Source: Natronoarchaeum mannanilyticum
GTDB taxonomy: Archaea; Halobacteriota; Halobacteria; Halobacteriales; Natronoarchaeaceae
Reading direction: 5' to 3'
Assembly: GCF_039522665.1 (NCBI RefSeq)
Contig: NZ_BAAADV010000001.1
Coordinates: 868,001 to 932,000 of the forward strand
Length of the DNA: 64,000 bases
The translations under genes were made by a program, and so were the position numbers. The notes under the pieces were generated by a model. It worked only from the letters and a program-made list of their open reading frames with translations. It was not told where the DNA came from and searched no databases. The number at the start of each line of letters is the position of its first letter. Position 1 is the stretch's first letter. Shown here piece by piece: positions 24,883 through 45,707 of this stretch.

Positions 24883-25938
24883 TCAGTCGTCGGCCGCCAC
24901 CCGCGGGTCCGGGCGGGCGTCGCCGTCCCGTTCGAGTCCCAGCGCGGCGTTCGTCCGGGCGACGCTCTCCTCGGCGTCGGCCATGTCGAACATCGCCCGG
25001 AGCGCGTCGACGTTCTCGGGCACGACGTCGGCCTCCTGGTGGATCGCCTGGAAGCAGTAGAAGTCCCGTTCCTCGACTGTGATCGACTCGCCCCAGACGC
25101 AGTTCTCCCAGACGTCCCCGCGCGGGCGGCCGGCGTCGCGGGCGTACTCGCGGAGCTGGCCGCAGCTCCCGATCCCCGAGCGCTCGGGGACGACGAACAG
25201 CCGCGACTCGGCGTCGAGCAGGTCGCACACGTCGCGGGAGTCGGGCGTCGATTCGAGCGTGACGTTGACGCTGTGGAGGTGCATCAGCGTTGCAGGCACT
25301 GTGAGCCCGAGCGTGTCGATCGAGAGGTCCGGGAAGATCGTCTGCACGTCGGGACCGTGGTGGGAAGGCACCTCGACGGGGTCCGGCAGGATGTCGTTGA
25401 TCGGCCCGCGATCGGACTGGGTGGGATCGCCGCCCCTGCGCACCAGCGTCGTCCGGACCTTTTCGATCCCGTAGGTCTCCGCGAGCGGTGCGAGCAGGCG
25501 CGAGAGCCCGGTCGTGTTGCAGGAGACGACCCGCACGTAGTCGGCGTCCCGTGCGTCGTCGAAGTTCGCCCGCGCGTTGAAGCTCGTCTCGGCCACGTCG
25601 GGCGCCTCGGCGCCCTGGAACACGGCTGGCGTGTCGCGGGCCTCGTACAGCGGGCGGTACTCGGCGCCGACGCCGCCCGGCGTCGCGTCGACGACGACGT
25701 CGCTGGCGTCGACCATGTCCCCGACCGTCCCGTCGACGGCGAGTCCCGCCGCGTGGAACTCGTCGACCGACTCCTCGTCGCACGCGTAGAGGGGGTAGCC
25801 CGCGGTGCGAGCCCCCTCGGCCGCGAAGTCGGGGCTCGTCTTCGTCACGCCCGCGATCGTCATATCCGGCTGTGCCCGCACCGCGTCGGCGACGCGCTTG
25901 CCGATTGTACCGTACCCGTTGACGCCCACCTGGAGCAT
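24883..25938 (-). CDS. gapB: Type II glyceraldehyde-3-phosphate dehydrogenase
   Basis: A 351-residue archaeal-type GAPDH ([20 protein letters not shown]) with catalytic C140 in [13 protein letters not shown] and the archaeal-type [19 protein letters not shown] segment. In Haloferax the type II enzyme acts in gluconeogenesis, reducing 1,3-bisphosphoglycerate. It is divergent from the type I gene, with 390 bases between. The ATG at 25938 is 25-32 bases downstream of a TATA-like GATTTATC (minus strand, 25963-25970), which argues against an upstream in-frame start. A TrmB-like site lies just upstream of that TATA box. Confidence 0.94.
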
Positions 25939-26328
25939 GTATGGGGTTGCGAGAGGGACCGGGATAAATCTTCGTGTTAGTTGATAGATCCTTACTCGAA
26001 AGAGAGTTGTTAACGGTCGGACCCCGGTATGTCGGCGAGATTCGTTGATCGACCGACGGAACGATCGATTTCCGATCTCTGACACGCTTGGGATACGATA
26101 CCACTCCTCACTCGGTCCCGACGCGTTCCGGCCGCCGCGAACGGCTACCAGTAAGATATCTTATGTTCGTTCGGCGGCGTCGCGTTTGTTTCTGTACGAT
26201 CCTCGTTTTTTGAGGAATCGACCGGTCAGGCGCCGGTTTGTAATCCTCAACAATTAATTACAATACGGATCTGGGCGTCGACTCCTATTTAGGTAAATAC
26301 TTTACTCGGAAGGTCGTACCAAGTCAGT
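25939..26328. promoter_or_regulatory. Divergent control region of the two GAPDH genes
   Basis: This 390-base gap has no reading frame of note. It contains the gapB TATA-like box (25963-25970), the gap TATA-like TAAATAC (26294-26300) and two related elements. TTACTCGAAAGAGAGTT at 25992-26008 fits the reported Halobacterium TrmB motif TACT-N7-GAGTA with one mismatch. TTACTCGGAAGGTCGTA at 26302-26318 keeps the first half only. The first sits upstream of the gapB TATA box (an activator position), the second directly downstream of the gap TATA box (a repressor position). The middle part is AT-rich with no clear function. Confidence 0.6.
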
Positions 26329-27366
26329 ATGAGTGACTCAGCAGACGATACGCTCCGCGTAGGGCTGAACGGGTTCGGACGCATCGGGCGCAACGTGTTC
26401 CGCGCCTCGCTGGTGACCGACGGCATCGAGGTCGTCGGCATCAACGACGTGATGGACGTCGACGACATGGCCTATCTCCTGAAGTACGACAGCGTCCACG
26501 GCCGCACCGAGGACGTCGAGATCGACGACGACGGCGACCTCGTCGTGCAGGGAACGACGATCCCGATCCTCTCGGAGAAGGATCCCGCCGAGCTCCCCTG
26601 GGACGACCTCGACGTCGACGTCGCCTTCGAGTGCACCGGCCTGTTCCGCAACTACGACGACGCCTACAAGCACGTCGAGGCCGGCGCCGACAAGACGATC
26701 ATCTCCGCGCCGCCGAAGGGCGAGAAGGAGGTCCTGACGATCGTCTACGGCGTCAACCACGACGAGTACGAGGGTCAGGACGTCGTCTCGAACGCCTCCT
26801 GTACCACGAACTCCGTCGCGCCGGTCGCGAAGGTACTCGACGAGGAGTTCGGCATCGAGTCGGGCGTCCTGACGACGACCCACGCCTACACCGGCACCCA
26901 GAGCCTCGTCGACGGTCCGAATCGCAAGCGCCGCCGCGGCCGTGCCGCCGCCGAGAACATCGTCCCGACCTCGACCGGCGCCGCGCAGGCGACGACCGAA
27001 GTTCTGCCCGAACTCGAGGGCAAGCTCGACGGCATGGCGATGCGCGTGCCCGTCCCGGACGGCTCGATCACCGACCTCACGGTCAACCTCGAGGAGGACG
27101 CCTCCATCGAGGAGGTCAACGCCGCGTTCGAGGACGCCGCCGAGGGCGAGCTCGAGGGCGTCATGGGCTACACCGAGGACGAGATCGTCTCGCGGGACGT
27201 CGTCGGCCAGCCCTACTCCTCGCTGATCGACGCCGACTCGACGATGAAGGTCGGCGGTCAGGTGAAGGTGCTCGCGTGGTACGACAACGAGTACGGCTTC
27301 TCGAACCGGATGCTCGACCTCGCGGCCCACGTCGTCGAGGAGTCCGAGCTCGAAGCCTCGGCCTGA
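26329..27366 (+). CDS. gap: Type I glyceraldehyde-3-phosphate dehydrogenase
   Basis: A 345-residue bacterial-type GAPDH (VGLNGFGRIGRNVFRASL) with catalytic C158 in NASCTTNSVAPV, the HAYTGTQ segment and the closing WYDNEYGFSNRM. It oxidises glyceraldehyde-3-phosphate with NAD+ and phosphate; in Haloferax the type I enzyme serves sugar breakdown. It is 53 bases upstream of pgk on the same strand, so it is probably co-transcribed with the next enzyme of the pathway. The start ATG is about 30 bases after TAAATAC, consistent with a leaderless message. Confidence 0.96.
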   Translation: MSDSADDTLRVGLNGFGRIGRNVFRASLVTDGIEVVGINDVMDVDDMAYLLKYDSVHGRTEDVEIDDDGDLVVQGTTIPILSEKDPAELPWDDLDVDVAFECTGLFRNYDDAYKHVEAGADKTIISAPPKGEKEVLTIVYGVNHDEYEGQDVVSNASCTTNSVAPVAKVLDEEFGIESGVLTTTHAYTGTQSLVDGPNRKRRRGRAAAENIVPTSTGAAQATTEVLPELEGKLDGMAMRVPVPDGSITDLTVNLEEDASIEEVNAAFEDAAEGELEGVMGYTEDEIVSRDVVGQPYSSLIDADSTMKVGGQVKVLAWYDNEYGFSNRMLDLAAHVVEESELEASA

Positions 27367-27419: not shown

Positions 27420-28637
27420 ATGTTCAACACCATCGACGACCTCGAACCCGAGCAGCGACTCCTGATGCGCGTCGACCTGAACGCGCCGGTCGACGACGGC
27501 GCGGTCCAGGACAACCGCCGCTTCGCCCGCCACGCCGAGACGATCGCCGAACTGATCGACGACGGCCACGCCGTCGCCCTGATGGCCCACCAGGGTCGCC
27601 CGGGTCGCGACACGTTCGTCACGCTCGAACAGCACGCCGACATCCTCGCCGACCACGTAGGTGAGGACGTCGACTACGTCCCCTCGACGTACGGCGACGA
27701 GGCCCTCGACGCGATCGCGGAGCTCGAATCGGGCGACGTGCTCGTCCTGGAGAACGTCCGGATGACCGACGACGAGCTCGCCGACCGCACCCCCGAGGAA
27801 CACGGCGAGAGCGACCTCGTGCAGACGCTCGCGCCCGAGTTCGACGCCTACGTCAACGACGGCTACTCGGTCGCCCACCGGCCCCACGCCTCGATCGTCG
27901 GCTTCCCGCAGGTCATGGACAGCTACGCCGGCCGCGTGATGGCCGAGGAGTACGAGTACAACACCTCGATCGAACGGCGCGAGTTCGACGGCAAGGTGAC
28001 GATGGTGCTGGGCGGCACCAAGGTCGAGGACGTCGTCGCCGCGATGGAGAACCTCGACGAGAAGGTCGACCAGTTCCTGCTGGGCGGGATCGTCGGCCAG
28101 CTGTTCCTCCGCTCGGAGGGGTACGAGATCGGCATCGACACGCCCGAGGGCCCCGGCCTGTACGACGAGAGCTGGGACGAAAACGAAGACACCATCCGCG
28201 AGGTCAAAGAGCGGTACGGCGACCGCATCTCGCTGCCGGTCGACGTCGCCCGCGAGGGCGAGGACGGCGAGCGCGTCACCGAGCGCGTCGAGGACGCCGC
28301 CGACCACCCCGACGAGTACCTGGACGTCGGCGAGGAAACCGTCGAGGCGTACCAGCCTCACGTCCGGGAGTCCGAGGCGGTGCTCGTGAAGGGCGCGCTC
28401 GGCGTCTTCGAGATGGAGCAGTTCAGCCACGGCACCGTCGGCGTCCTGCGGGCGGTCGCCGAGACCGACTGCTACTCGGTGGTCGGCGGCGGCGACACCT
28501 CCCGTACGGTCACGATGTACGATCTGGGCGAGGAGAACTTCGATCACCTCTCGATCGCCGGCGGCGCCTACCTGCGCGCTCTGACCGGCGCGCCGCTGCC
28601 GGCCGTCGAGGCGCTCGAAGCGGCCGCCGAGCGGTAA
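27420..28637 (+). CDS. pgk: Phosphoglycerate kinase
   Basis: A 405-residue cytoplasmic kinase that interconverts 1,3-bisphosphoglycerate and 3-phosphoglycerate with ADP/ATP. Seen motifs are RVDLNAPVDDG at the N-terminus, AHQGRPG, VLVLENVRM, the ATP-side VLGGTKVEDVV, and VVGGGDTSRTV near the C-terminus. The length is normal for the archaeal enzyme. It works in both glycolysis and gluconeogenesis and follows the type I GAPDH gene directly. Confidence 0.96.
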   Translation: MFNTIDDLEPEQRLLMRVDLNAPVDDGAVQDNRRFARHAETIAELIDDGHAVALMAHQGRPGRDTFVTLEQHADILADHVGEDVDYVPSTYGDEALDAIAELESGDVLVLENVRMTDDELADRTPEEHGESDLVQTLAPEFDAYVNDGYSVAHRPHASIVGFPQVMDSYAGRVMAEEYEYNTSIERREFDGKVTMVLGGTKVEDVVAAMENLDEKVDQFLLGGIVGQLFLRSEGYEIGIDTPEGPGLYDESWDENEDTIREVKERYGDRISLPVDVAREGEDGERVTERVEDAADHPDEYLDVGEETVEAYQPHVRESEAVLVKGALGVFEMEQFSHGTVGVLRAVAETDCYSVVGGGDTSRTVTMYDLGEENFDHLSIAGGAYLRALTGAPLPAVEALEAAAER

Positions 28638-42398: not shown

Positions 42399-43475
42399 TT
42401 ACGCGTCGGCGTCCTGCTCGTCCGGTCGCTCCAGGGTGACCTCGAACGCCTCGAAGTCCTCGACGAACGCGCCCTCGCCGCCGATGGTGAACCGGCGGTT
42501 GCCGGTGTCGATCGTGAAGGCGTTCTCGACGGGGAACGAGTTGGTCGCGGGCTTGACCAGCCCCTGCCGGACGCCGACAACCTCGCCCTCGATCGTCTCC
42601 TCGCCGTTCTCGGTCGCGACCGGCCGTCCGCGCACGGTCGCGACGACGTCCTGTCCCTGCTGCATGTGGAGCGCGACCTGCAGGACGGCGTTCCGGAAGT
42701 CCGGCGTGGACAGGGGCAGTTCGCGGGCGCGCTCGACGTGGAGCTCCTCGGCGACCGGCCAGTAGTTGCCGAGGAACGAGCCGATCAGCACCGGGACGAG
42801 CTGGCGCTGGGCCAGCGAGATGGCGTTCGAGTCGCTGTTGGACTGGGTCAGCATGTCGTTGGGCGCGATCAGGCCGAGCGAGCGATCGACCGTCAGCATC
42901 AGCGGCGCGCGCGCGTGCCACACCCTGACCGCGCTGGCGACGCCGTCGAGCTGCTCGATGGGATAGTTCTCCGCTTCGGGGCCGCTGAGCAACAGCAGGA
43001 CGAGCACGCCGCGGTCGAGCGTCTCGCGCAGCGTCGGCTGGATCCGCGTCAGCAGCGACGCCGGCAGCGTCAGCGTCACTTCCTCGTCGGCGCTCTCGAG
43101 GAGCCGCTCGATGCGCTTGAGCACGGTCGGCCGGGACTTGATCACCTCGAACTGCTCGATCTCGTCGTCGGTGCTGGTGTAGCGACGTTCGAGTTCGGGC
43201 TCCATCGTCTCGATCGTCCCGTTGAGCCGCTCGATCACCTCCGACGGCGGCCGGGCCTTGATCATCGTCGGCACCGAGTGATCGTTGACCTCGACGAAGC
43301 CGCGCTCCTCTAACTCCTCGCTGATGCTGTAGACGTAGCGCTTGGAGACGTCGGCGTCGTTCGCGACTTCGCTCGCCTTGGCTTCTCCTCTGTTCAGAAT
43401 CGCCAGATACGTGTCGATCTCCTTCTCCGAGAGGCCGAACTGGGACAGCAGATCGGCGAGGCCCCTTTCATCCAT
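42399..43475 (-). CDS. trmB: TrmB family sugar-responsive regulator
   Basis: A 358-residue regulator. A winged helix-turn-helix (about residues 10-75: FGLSEKEIDTYLAILNRGEA, ASEVANDADVSKRYVYSI) is followed by a coiled segment and a sugar-binding C-terminal domain with a phospholipase-D-like middle and a beta-rich end. TrmB proteins bind trehalose, maltose or glucose and control sugar uptake and, in haloarchaea, gluconeogenesis. It is divergent from the GH15 gene and close to the ABC sugar transporter, matching that role. A TATA-like AATAATAAAT lies at 43508-43517. Confidence 0.93.
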   Translation of the reverse strand: MDERGLADLLSQFGLSEKEIDTYLAILNRGEAKASEVANDADVSKRYVYSISEELEERGFVEVNDHSVPTMIKARPPSEVIERLNGTIETMEPELERRYTSTDDEIEQFEVIKSRPTVLKRIERLLESADEEVTLTLPASLLTRIQPTLRETLDRGVLVLLLLSGPEAENYPIEQLDGVASAVRVWHARAPLMLTVDRSLGLIAPNDMLTQSNSDSNAISLAQRQLVPVLIGSFLGNYWPVAEELHVERARELPLSTPDFRNAVLQVALHMQQGQDVVATVRGRPVATENGEETIEGEVVGVRQGLVKPATNSFPVENAFTIDTGNRRFTIGGEGAFVEDFEAFEVTLERPDEQDADA

Positions 43476-43676: not shown

Positions 43677-45707
43677 ATGAAACTGCGGACAGCGCTACGG
43701 GACTACAAAGAGCGGCGTGGCAGCGAGACGGCGTTCCCGGGGGAACGCCGTTCGACTGCCGGCATCTTCTCGGGTCTCGACGATCGCCTCGTGCACGTCG
43801 GGCCCGACGGCTCGCTCCGCGATTTCTCGTATCCTCTGACCGGGTACGGCGGCATCGAACACCTGCGCTTCGGACTGCGGGTCGACGACGAGATCCGCTG
43901 GTTCGACGAGTACGACGCAGAGCGACAGTCCTACGTCGAGGACACGGCGATCGTCGAGACCGAACGGTCCGTCGGCGATTCGACGGTCGTCCAGCGGGAT
44001 CTGACGCTCGGCGACGGCCACGTCACGAACGTGCGCGTCGAGGGCGAGGCCGACGCGGTCTGCGTCTCGGCGACGTTCTCGCCGGACGACACCGGCACCC
44101 AGCTCGCGCAGCTCGACCACGGCGACGCGGTCGAGGTCTTCCACCGGCGCGAGCACGACTACTTCGCCGCGTCGACCGGCTTCGAGGAGCTCTCCGGACA
44201 AGTTCCCGAGCAGATCGACGAGGTACTGGCCGACGGCGACCCGGTCGAGTTCCCCCGGGACGTCGACGACGGCCGCTACGAGGAGAACAAGCTCGGCGGG
44301 ACGGTGTACGGCGTCGCCCCGCTCGACGACGGCGCGGTAACGTTCGCGTCGCTGCTGACCGCGGTCGACGAGATCGACCGCGCCGAAGCGCTCGATCGGA
44401 CGCGCTCGCTGGCGACCGACCACGACGCCGACGCGATCGCGACGGCCGGCGCGCGCCAGCTTCCCGACTGGGACACCGGCCTGTCGGGCGACGGAGGGGC
44501 GACCGACGACCTTCGCGTGCTCTCTCTGCTGTCGTGCCAGACCGGCGCGCGGATCGCCGGCCCCGACTTCGACCCGACGTACGCGTACTCGGGCGGGTAC
44601 GGCTACACCTGGTTCCGCGACGACGCCGAGATCTCGCGGTTCCTGCTGGAGGCCGACGAGCGGACCGGCCTCGATCTCTCAGGGTTCCACGAGGCCAGCG
44701 CGCAGTTCTACGCCCGGACCCAGCAGCCCGACGGCACCTGGCCCCACCGCGTGTGGCCCGACGACGGCAGCCTCGCGCCGGGGTGGGCCCACGGCCGCCT
44801 CGAGGCGACCGACGGCGCCGACTATCAGGCCGACCAGACCGGCAGCGTCGCGGCGTTCCTGGCGACGTACCTCCGGGTCGGCGAACCCGAGGACCCAGCG
44901 GCGATCGAGGCGACGATCGCGGACGCGCTCGACGGGCTGGCCGCGACGACCGACGACGACGGCCTGCCCGAGACGGCCCAGAACGCCTGGGAGAACATGA
45001 CCGGCCGGTTCGCCCACACGACGGCGACGTTCCTGCACGCCTACGCGGCGATCGCCCGAGCGCCCGTCGACGACGAGCTCGCTGAACGCGCCCTCGCGGG
45101 CGCGAGCGACGTCTACGAGAGCGTCGACGAGCTGTGGATGGACGATCGGGGCGCGTACGCGCTCCGGATCGAGGACGGCGAACTCGACGAGCGACTCGAC
45201 TCCAGCGCGCTCGCGCTGGCCGACGCCCACCGCGAGTACGCGGCGGTCGCCGAGATCGACGACGAGCGACTCGACCGCCTGGTCAGCCACGTCGAGACGA
45301 CGATCGACGGGCTGTCCCGCGATCCCGAGGACAGCGACGTCCGTGGCGTCGTCCGATTCGAGGAGGACCCCTGGCGCCGACGCGAGCAGGCCGACGAGAA
45401 GATCTGGACGGTGTCGACGGCGTGGGCGGCGAACGCCGCGACGAAGCTCGGCGCGCTGCTGGCCGAGTACGACCGCGAGGAGGCCGCCGACGCGTACGAT
45501 CGGGCGGTCGAGCTGCTCGATATCATCGCGCCCGGCGGCCCGCTGTGTCTCGACAGCGGTTACCTGCCCGAGCAGATGTTCGACGACGGCACGCCCGACA
45601 GCGCGACGCCGCTCGGATGGCCCCACGCGCTCCGACTTGCGACCGACACCGAACTGCGGACCCGCGGCCCGATCGCCGACGAGGAGCCGGTCGTCGCCGA
45701 CGACTGA
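43677..45707 (+). CDS. Glycoside hydrolase family 15 (glucoamylase/trehalase-like)
   Basis: A 676-residue enzyme with an N-terminal beta-sandwich domain (about 1-270) and a GH15 (alpha/alpha)6 barrel. Seen motifs are YSGGYGYTWFRDDAEISRFL, TWPHRVWPDDG, the general-acid region NAWENMTGRFAHTT, and GYLPEQMFDDG near the base Glu. It should hydrolyse alpha-glucosidic bonds. It has no signal peptide, so it would act on imported sugars such as maltose, maltodextrin or trehalose, consistent with the neighbouring ABC transporter. The message appears leaderless. A terminator-like T-run and hairpin follow its stop codon. Confidence 0.93.
   Translation: MKLRTALRDYKERRGSETAFPGERRSTAGIFSGLDDRLVHVGPDGSLRDFSYPLTGYGGIEHLRFGLRVDDEIRWFDEYDAERQSYVEDTAIVETERSVGDSTVVQRDLTLGDGHVTNVRVEGEADAVCVSATFSPDDTGTQLAQLDHGDAVEVFHRREHDYFAASTGFEELSGQVPEQIDEVLADGDPVEFPRDVDDGRYEENKLGGTVYGVAPLDDGAVTFASLLTAVDEIDRAEALDRTRSLATDHDADAIATAGARQLPDWDTGLSGDGGATDDLRVLSLLSCQTGARIAGPDFDPTYAYSGGYGYTWFRDDAEISRFLLEADERTGLDLSGFHEASAQFYARTQQPDGTWPHRVWPDDGSLAPGWAHGRLEATDGADYQADQTGSVAAFLATYLRVGEPEDPAAIEATIADALDGLAATTDDDGLPETAQNAWENMTGRFAHTTATFLHAYAAIARAPVDDELAERALAGASDVYESVDELWMDDRGAYALRIEDGELDERLDSSALALADAHREYAAVAEIDDERLDRLVSHVETTIDGLSRDPEDSDVRGVVRFEEDPWRRREQADEKIWTVSTAWAANAATKLGALLAEYDREEAADAYDRAVELLDIIAPGGPLCLDSGYLPEQMFDDGTPDSATPLGWPHALRLATDTELRTRGPIADEEPVVADD

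Follow-up and report, generated by a model that had tools for sequence, protein, structure and literature searches.

The window, a stretch of 64,000 nt from Natronoarchaeum mannanilyticum, carries the gluconeogenic gapII (gapB) and the glycolytic gapI, two glyceraldehyde-3-phosphate dehydrogenase (GAPDH) genes that are divergent and head to head with 390 bp between their starts at 25938 (minus strand) and 26329 (plus strand). The question raised by this locus is whether one TrmB regulator switches both genes in opposite directions. A preliminary description had proposed this from two similar elements, one upstream of the gapII TATA box and one at the gapI TATA box, and from a TrmB gene elsewhere in the window. 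The divergent layout is common, being present in 33 of 38 gapI loci (the window included, and L094 counted, where the gapI start is miscalled). Two of the five other loci (L092, L093) have no gapII near gapI, and in three Haloferax loci (L045, L054, L064) the two genes face each other. The features discussed are as follows.

24883..25938, minus strand: gapII (gapB), type II gluconeogenic GAPDH (NF003251 of NCBIfam, 492 bits, cut-off 185)
25963..25973, minus strand: probable gapII TATA/BRE region (GATTTAT), placed from sequence and spacing
25993..26008, minus strand: TrmB-type palindrome (site 1), probable activator site, core -70 to -55 from the gapII ATG (matrix and conservation)
26301..26304, plus strand: probable core TTTA of the gapI TATA box, inside TAAATACTTTA (family alignment and distance in relatives)
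26302..26318, plus strand: claimed site 2, overlapping the gapI TATA box, unsupported as a TrmB site
26320..26335, plus strand: place of the TACTC-N6-GAGT palindrome that many relatives carry over the gapI start codon, absent in the window
26329..27366, plus strand: gapI, type I glycolytic GAPDH (TIGR01534, 427 bits, cut-off 367)
27420..28637, plus strand: pgk, downstream of gapI (bifunctional PGK/TIM model PRK13962, 258.6 bits, under the family cut-off of 883)
42399..43475, minus strand: TrmB-family paralogue beside a GH15 glucoamylase-like gene (NF047392, 154 bits, cut-off 500)

The palindrome upstream of gapII and its probable regulator

The first of the two elements, TTACTCGAAAGAGAGTT, was confirmed at 25992-26008. 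The plain pattern TACTN7GAGTA with two mismatches gave 71 matches in the window against a shuffle mean of 45, and one of 100 shuffles reached 71; this pattern is too loose to single out two sites, and a matrix was therefore used. The matrix is symmetric, has 20 columns and was built from 43 distinct gapII sites with the window's genus left out. Site 1 scored 21.0 bits and ranked first of the 63,981 window positions. When the intergenic region was shuffled 2000 times, a fraction of 0.0015 of the shuffles reached this score. Among the ten palindrome positions of site 1, one is a mismatch. Two further matches of the matrix in the window were set aside, at 2746 (15.3 bits), which lies within the long ORF 1645-2784, and at 26834 (13.0 bits), which lies within gapI.

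The palindrome recurs at gapII across haloarchaea. Among the 66 upstream regions of haloarchaeal gapII genes that were compared, TACTC-N6-GAGTA was found at -80 to -61 in 60 when up to three mismatches were allowed (4.7 expected), in 49 with up to two (0.7 expected) and in 33 with at most one (0.08 expected), the expected counts being taken from a first-order Markov model. It was missing at three mismatches in that interval from the other six of the 66. Five non-haloarchaeal loci, the partial gapII matches L069, L074 and L076, and four duplicate loci of the window and its congener had been dropped from this set, in which some genomes are present twice, from two collections. In the congeneric genome G001 a large part of the intergenic region is diverged, yet the palindrome of site 1 and its distance from the TATA box are kept. 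The identification of site 1 as a TrmB-type motif upstream of the gapII promoter is thus upheld, and its position upstream of BRE/TATA at about -70 is the one expected for gapII activation, as had been predicted. Site 1 is very probably a binding site of TrmB.

The TrmB gene to which the preliminary description had assigned this site is a member of the TrmB family but is not the TrmB orthologue. The protein encoded at 42399-43475 scored 154.2 bits on NF047392, the haloarchaeal TrmB equivalog, for which the cut-off is 500, and the orthologue, with 610.6 bits, is encoded on another contig (C7, 43341-44387, of the same genome, G000). The two proteins exhibit 31% identity. Their DNA-contacting pairs also differ, Tyr-Ser in the window paralogue against Tyr-Asp in the C7 protein, and Tyr-Asp is the pair listed as DNA-contacting in Halobacterium TrmB (PMC4158304). 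The paralogue gene is divergent from a glucoamylase-like gene with a GH15 match in 43677-45707, and because it faces this gene a local role is suggested; the best match of the gapII matrix (asymmetric form) seen between the two genes was 7.3 bits. The paralogue is more likely a local regulator, and although it shares its family and domains with TrmB, it is highly improbable that site 1 is bound by this protein and not by the C7 TrmB, given the score, the Tyr-Ser pair and the facing glucoamylase-like gene.

In the proposed mechanism, the TrmB orthologue from contig C7 would bind the palindrome (core -70 to -55) just upstream of the gapII BRE/TATA when sugar is absent, and the bound protein would promote transcription of the gluconeogenic GAPDH. 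Sugar would then release TrmB from the palindrome. Binding, the direction of regulation and the response to sugar are extended to this organism by analogy with Haloarcula and Halobacterium. In Haloarcula hispanica, TrmB is on the gapII promoter without glucose and deletion of trmB lowers gapII expression (PMC10817205). The part of the proposal that concerns gapII is sound and of a known kind, TrmB activation of gapII having already been published in Haloarcula.

A motif search over the genome, as the preliminary description had proposed, was run with TACTN7GAGT and gave 48 matches against 21 for the reversed control. With the same gapII matrix, the region upstream of ppsA in this genome scored 16.7 bits at -76 to -61 and the aldolase-fbp gene pair scored 17.3 bits at -143 to -128. 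In Haloarcula, TrmB binds the ppsA and fbp promoters, and gapII, ppsA and fbp are all TrmB-bound in both Halobacterium and Haloarcula (PMC10817205). This matrix found no such site at the other fructose-bisphosphatase match of the genome (L158, where the locus reaches 8.1 bits at most) or at a weaker ppsA-like match (L162 and L163, nothing above 7.5 bits). From site 1 together with the ppsA and aldolase-fbp sites, it is concluded that a TrmB regulon is very probably present in this genome and that gapII is a member. The system so predicted resembles that of Haloarcula hispanica TrmB (HAH_1548) in its palindrome in the gapII promoter, in activation without glucose and in the ppsA and fbp sites. 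It also resembles that of Halobacterium salinarum TrmB (VNG1451C, motif TACT-N7-8-GAGTA) in motif type and in having an orthologous regulator, and differs from the latter in that gapI is present here and in that the regulon is one predicted from sequence.

Two side observations were made with regard to this regulon. An 11.2-bit match (L077:2587) lies about 35-50 bp upstream of the organism's own trmB and is possibly a weak autoregulatory site. A ATCTATCA-like block at 25980-25991, beside the gapII palindrome, was seen by eye to recur in many relatives and might be the site of a second regulator, such as TbsP. In Haloferax volcanii, gapII is reportedly controlled by TbsP and TrmB, an account said to be that of Hackley et al. 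in Mol Microbiol in 2024; TrmB control of gapII there is as proposed here.

The proposed second site at the gapI TATA box

The second element, TTACTCGGAAGGTCGTA, was likewise confirmed at 26302-26318, and it had been read as the site through which TrmB represses gapI. The left half-site TACTC is complete and the right half-site is poor. Site 2 scored 10.1 bits, which places it fifth in the window by the symmetric matrix and fourth by the asymmetric one. Shuffling the 80-nt gapI core promoter reproduced this score in a fraction of 0.036 of the trials, and shuffling the intergenic region with site 1 removed did so in 0.075, which makes the score a marginal one. The score is not comparable to the 16.7-21.0 bits of the likely real sites of this genome; low-scoring real sites are nonetheless possible, since the lowest training site of the gapII matrix has 3.4 bits.

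The location of the element offers another account of its sequence. Site 2 starts inside the TTTA at 26301-26304, the probable TATA core, and the stretch TAAATACTTTA at the gapI TATA box is common to the eight family members aligned (of nine known), with TTTA at equal distance from gapI in many relatives. Outside the window's genus, CTC follows TTTA only in G034 among the six other family members aligned. Ten genomes with no detected TrmB orthologue were examined, and in nine of them TTACTC was present at the TATA-like stretch upstream of gapI, as TTACTCA in all six genomes of genus g29 and as TTACTCG in three of the four of genus g25 (TTACTCG thus 3/10), so that the sequence is not restricted to genomes with a detected TrmB orthologue. 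TrmB absence here means no match at E 1e-100 or better, and weaker TrmB paralogues may exist in these genomes; the comparison applies to the half-site and not to the whole palindrome, the full-matrix score there being at most 8.3.

Several observations favour a functional element at this place. Site 2 is identical in the single other congeneric genome, where it lies within an identical block of 31 nt, and the region is therefore constrained in the genus. In G034, which belongs to the same family, a 12.2-bit match lies almost at this position. TTACTCG occurs 24 times in the 464 kb of background searched, and the only occurrence followed within 18-45 nt by an ATG-started ORF that has at least 100 codons is the one at this gapI. 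Because of the congener conservation, the G034 match and the rarity of TTACTCG so placed, a weak or half-site operator at site 2 is regarded as unsupported rather than disproved.

A repressor site here would also agree with what is known of the family. In Thermococcales, Tgr/TrmBL1 activates from sites upstream of BRE/TATA and represses from sites downstream of them or over the transcription start, and repression by TrmB, TrmBL1 and Tgr agrees with a site that lies at the TATA box or beyond it in the downstream direction (PMC4158304); the Tgr/TrmBL1 motif, TATCAC-N5-GTGATA, differs from that of haloarchaeal TrmB. In Haloarcula, gapI/pgk shifts in the repressed direction, below significance (p = 0.079) (PMC10817205). 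Together with the complete left half-site, the rank of fifth in the window and the unchanged 31-nt block, this is what can be said for TrmB binding at the edge of the TATA box of gapI as well, so that both genes would be switched oppositely in this organism. The shuffle fractions of 0.036-0.075, the poor right half-site, the coincidence with the probable TATA box itself, the TTACTC of genomes without a TrmB orthologue at E 1e-100 and the 16.7-21 bits of the likely real sites stand against it and make it unlikely. The reading considered to be well favoured from the sequence is that TrmB activates gapII from site 1, a conserved site, and that site 2 consists of the TATA box of gapI and a half-site that resembles the TrmB motif in part. 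The gapI half of the proposed switch is hence unsupported in this genome, and the regulator named for it is the wrong paralogue.

Control of gapI in the window's genus may instead lie with another factor acting on a conserved stretch that lies about 55-145 bp before the gapI start, with no TrmB input. Judged by eye, parts of 26184-26275 are better conserved between the window and the congener than the remainder of the intergenic region is. The activator GfcR is a candidate factor, being an activator of GAPDH I in Haloferax volcanii (PMC11519228, after Johnsen et al. 2023). This alternative is a tenable one, held at somewhat less than even confidence.

A palindrome over the gapI start codon in relatives

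A different picture was obtained at gapI of other haloarchaea. The gapII-trained matrix was scanned over -60 to +15 around the gapI start in 79 loci, and in 58 of these the best match lay at one fixed place, with its core at -9 to +6 (A of ATG = 0), and scored at least 13 bits. In Haloferax (L045), for instance, the site reads ACTACTCGAACATGAGTGAA, and in Natronosalvus (L046) it reads ACTACTCACATATGAGTGAA. Counted over the loci with family and genus assigned, the site was present at this threshold in 51 of 71 genomes and 26 of 34 genera, distributed by family as f4 14/15, f5 25/26, f9 6/6, f2 2/2, f1 4/8, f3 0/12 and f10 0/2. The genomes were not a random sample, the best gapI matches having been taken first and then a hand-chosen spread. 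Another set of 30 gapI loci, taken from 28 genomes and picked so that TrmB-less lineages and gapI copies away from gapII were represented, yielded three at 13 bits or more, one at 12.6 and 26 without the site. With both sets combined, 27 of 47 genera have the site at 13 bits or more.

The four best of the further 30 loci all adjoin gapII, and none of the 17 f4 gapI copies without gapII nearby has the site. Two genomes encode two gapI copies each (L196, L197, L222, L223), and only the copy beside gapII carries it, at 20.8 against -8.1 bits in G053 and 20.8 against -29.5 bits in G086. The window is without the site (-10.6 bits at 26320..26335), as is its genus, and so are all five genomes of genus g11 (inferred Haloarcula). 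The latter agrees with Table 2 of the Haloarcula hispanica study, which lists no TrmB ChIP peak at gapI (PMC10817205). Since the site is missing in the window's genus, in the f3 genomes examined (inferred Haloarcula included) and in f4 copies away from gapII, the start-codon wiring would have been gained or lost several times.

The co-occurrence with TrmB was compared by eye. All 50 surveyed genomes of the 51 that bear the site have a TrmB match at E 1e-100 or better, which is a consistency check only, because 249 of 292 surveyed genomes have such a match. The site was absent in all 10 examined gapI genomes without TrmB, and this says little, because all of them are in groups without the site anyway (f3, and f4 copies away from gapII).

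The right half of the site is partly set by the common protein start Met-Ser-Glu or Met-Ser-Lys, encoded by ATG-AGT-(G/A)AA, and the information therefore lies in the TACTC or TATTC at -9 to -5. A general start context was considered as the source of the element, and in a small control none of 20 other ATGAGT starts scored 15 bits or more. This control began with 24 "non-GAPDH" starts, of which four scoring at least 15 bits were dropped on inspection: L045 and L054 are gapI, L057 is a gapI start read on the opposite strand, and L188 had been fetched by pattern match. Across 13 genomes, WACTCNNNNATGAGT occurs 3-15 times per genome against 0-2 times for the reversed pattern, and four of the eight non-gapI places that were fetched (L185-L192) look like real gene starts (L185, L188, L189 and L190). 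The start-codon element is rare, and genes other than gapI carry it as well.

In G263 and G242, small ORFs that resemble each other and are about 51 aa long (MSKI...GG-LTG) were also observed to start with WACTC-N4-ATGAGT; the ORFs with this start lie at position 2937 of L189 and position 2006 of L190, both on the minus strand. Two proteins of less than 50 aa are among the TrmB-bound, TrmB-induced genes in PMC10817205.

Positions -7 and +6 of the start-codon site covary, with C/G in 28 genomes, T/A in 18, C/A in five, T/G in two and A/G in one; the two T/G genomes (genera g3 and g14) do not reach 13 bits. Fisher's test at the genus level, with one row with A at -7 left out, gave p = 3e-5, the genera not being independent. 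An RNA hairpin at the gapI start codon was rejected, as the neighbouring positions do not pair. The pattern is consistent with one departure from the palindrome being tolerated, and the signal is inflated by shared ancestry.

A possible two-gene switch in haloarchaea

Taken together with the gapII site, the start-codon palindrome at -9 to +6 would allow TrmB to repress gapI directly in many haloarchaea, giving a two-gene switch under one sugar sensor, and the chances of this are judged to be about even. Control of two opposing GAPDH genes by one regulator, as had been envisaged for the window, is thus plausible in other haloarchaea through the start-codon site. In the literature searched, no TrmB site over the start codon of gapI was described; a Haloferax TrmB/TbsP paper, outside that scope, may have one.

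What began as a guess on one genome has in this way become a testable prediction on gapI in other haloarchaea. TrmB is predicted to bind at gapI where the start-codon site is present, for example in Haloferax (L045), Natronosalvus (L046) and Natrarchaeobius (L049), and to be absent from gapI where the site is missing, in the window's genus, in Salinarchaeum (L060) and probably in Haloarcula. The opposing GAPDH enzymes should not run together, and promoters under one sugar sensor would be a means by which haloarchaea switch between burning sugar and making it.
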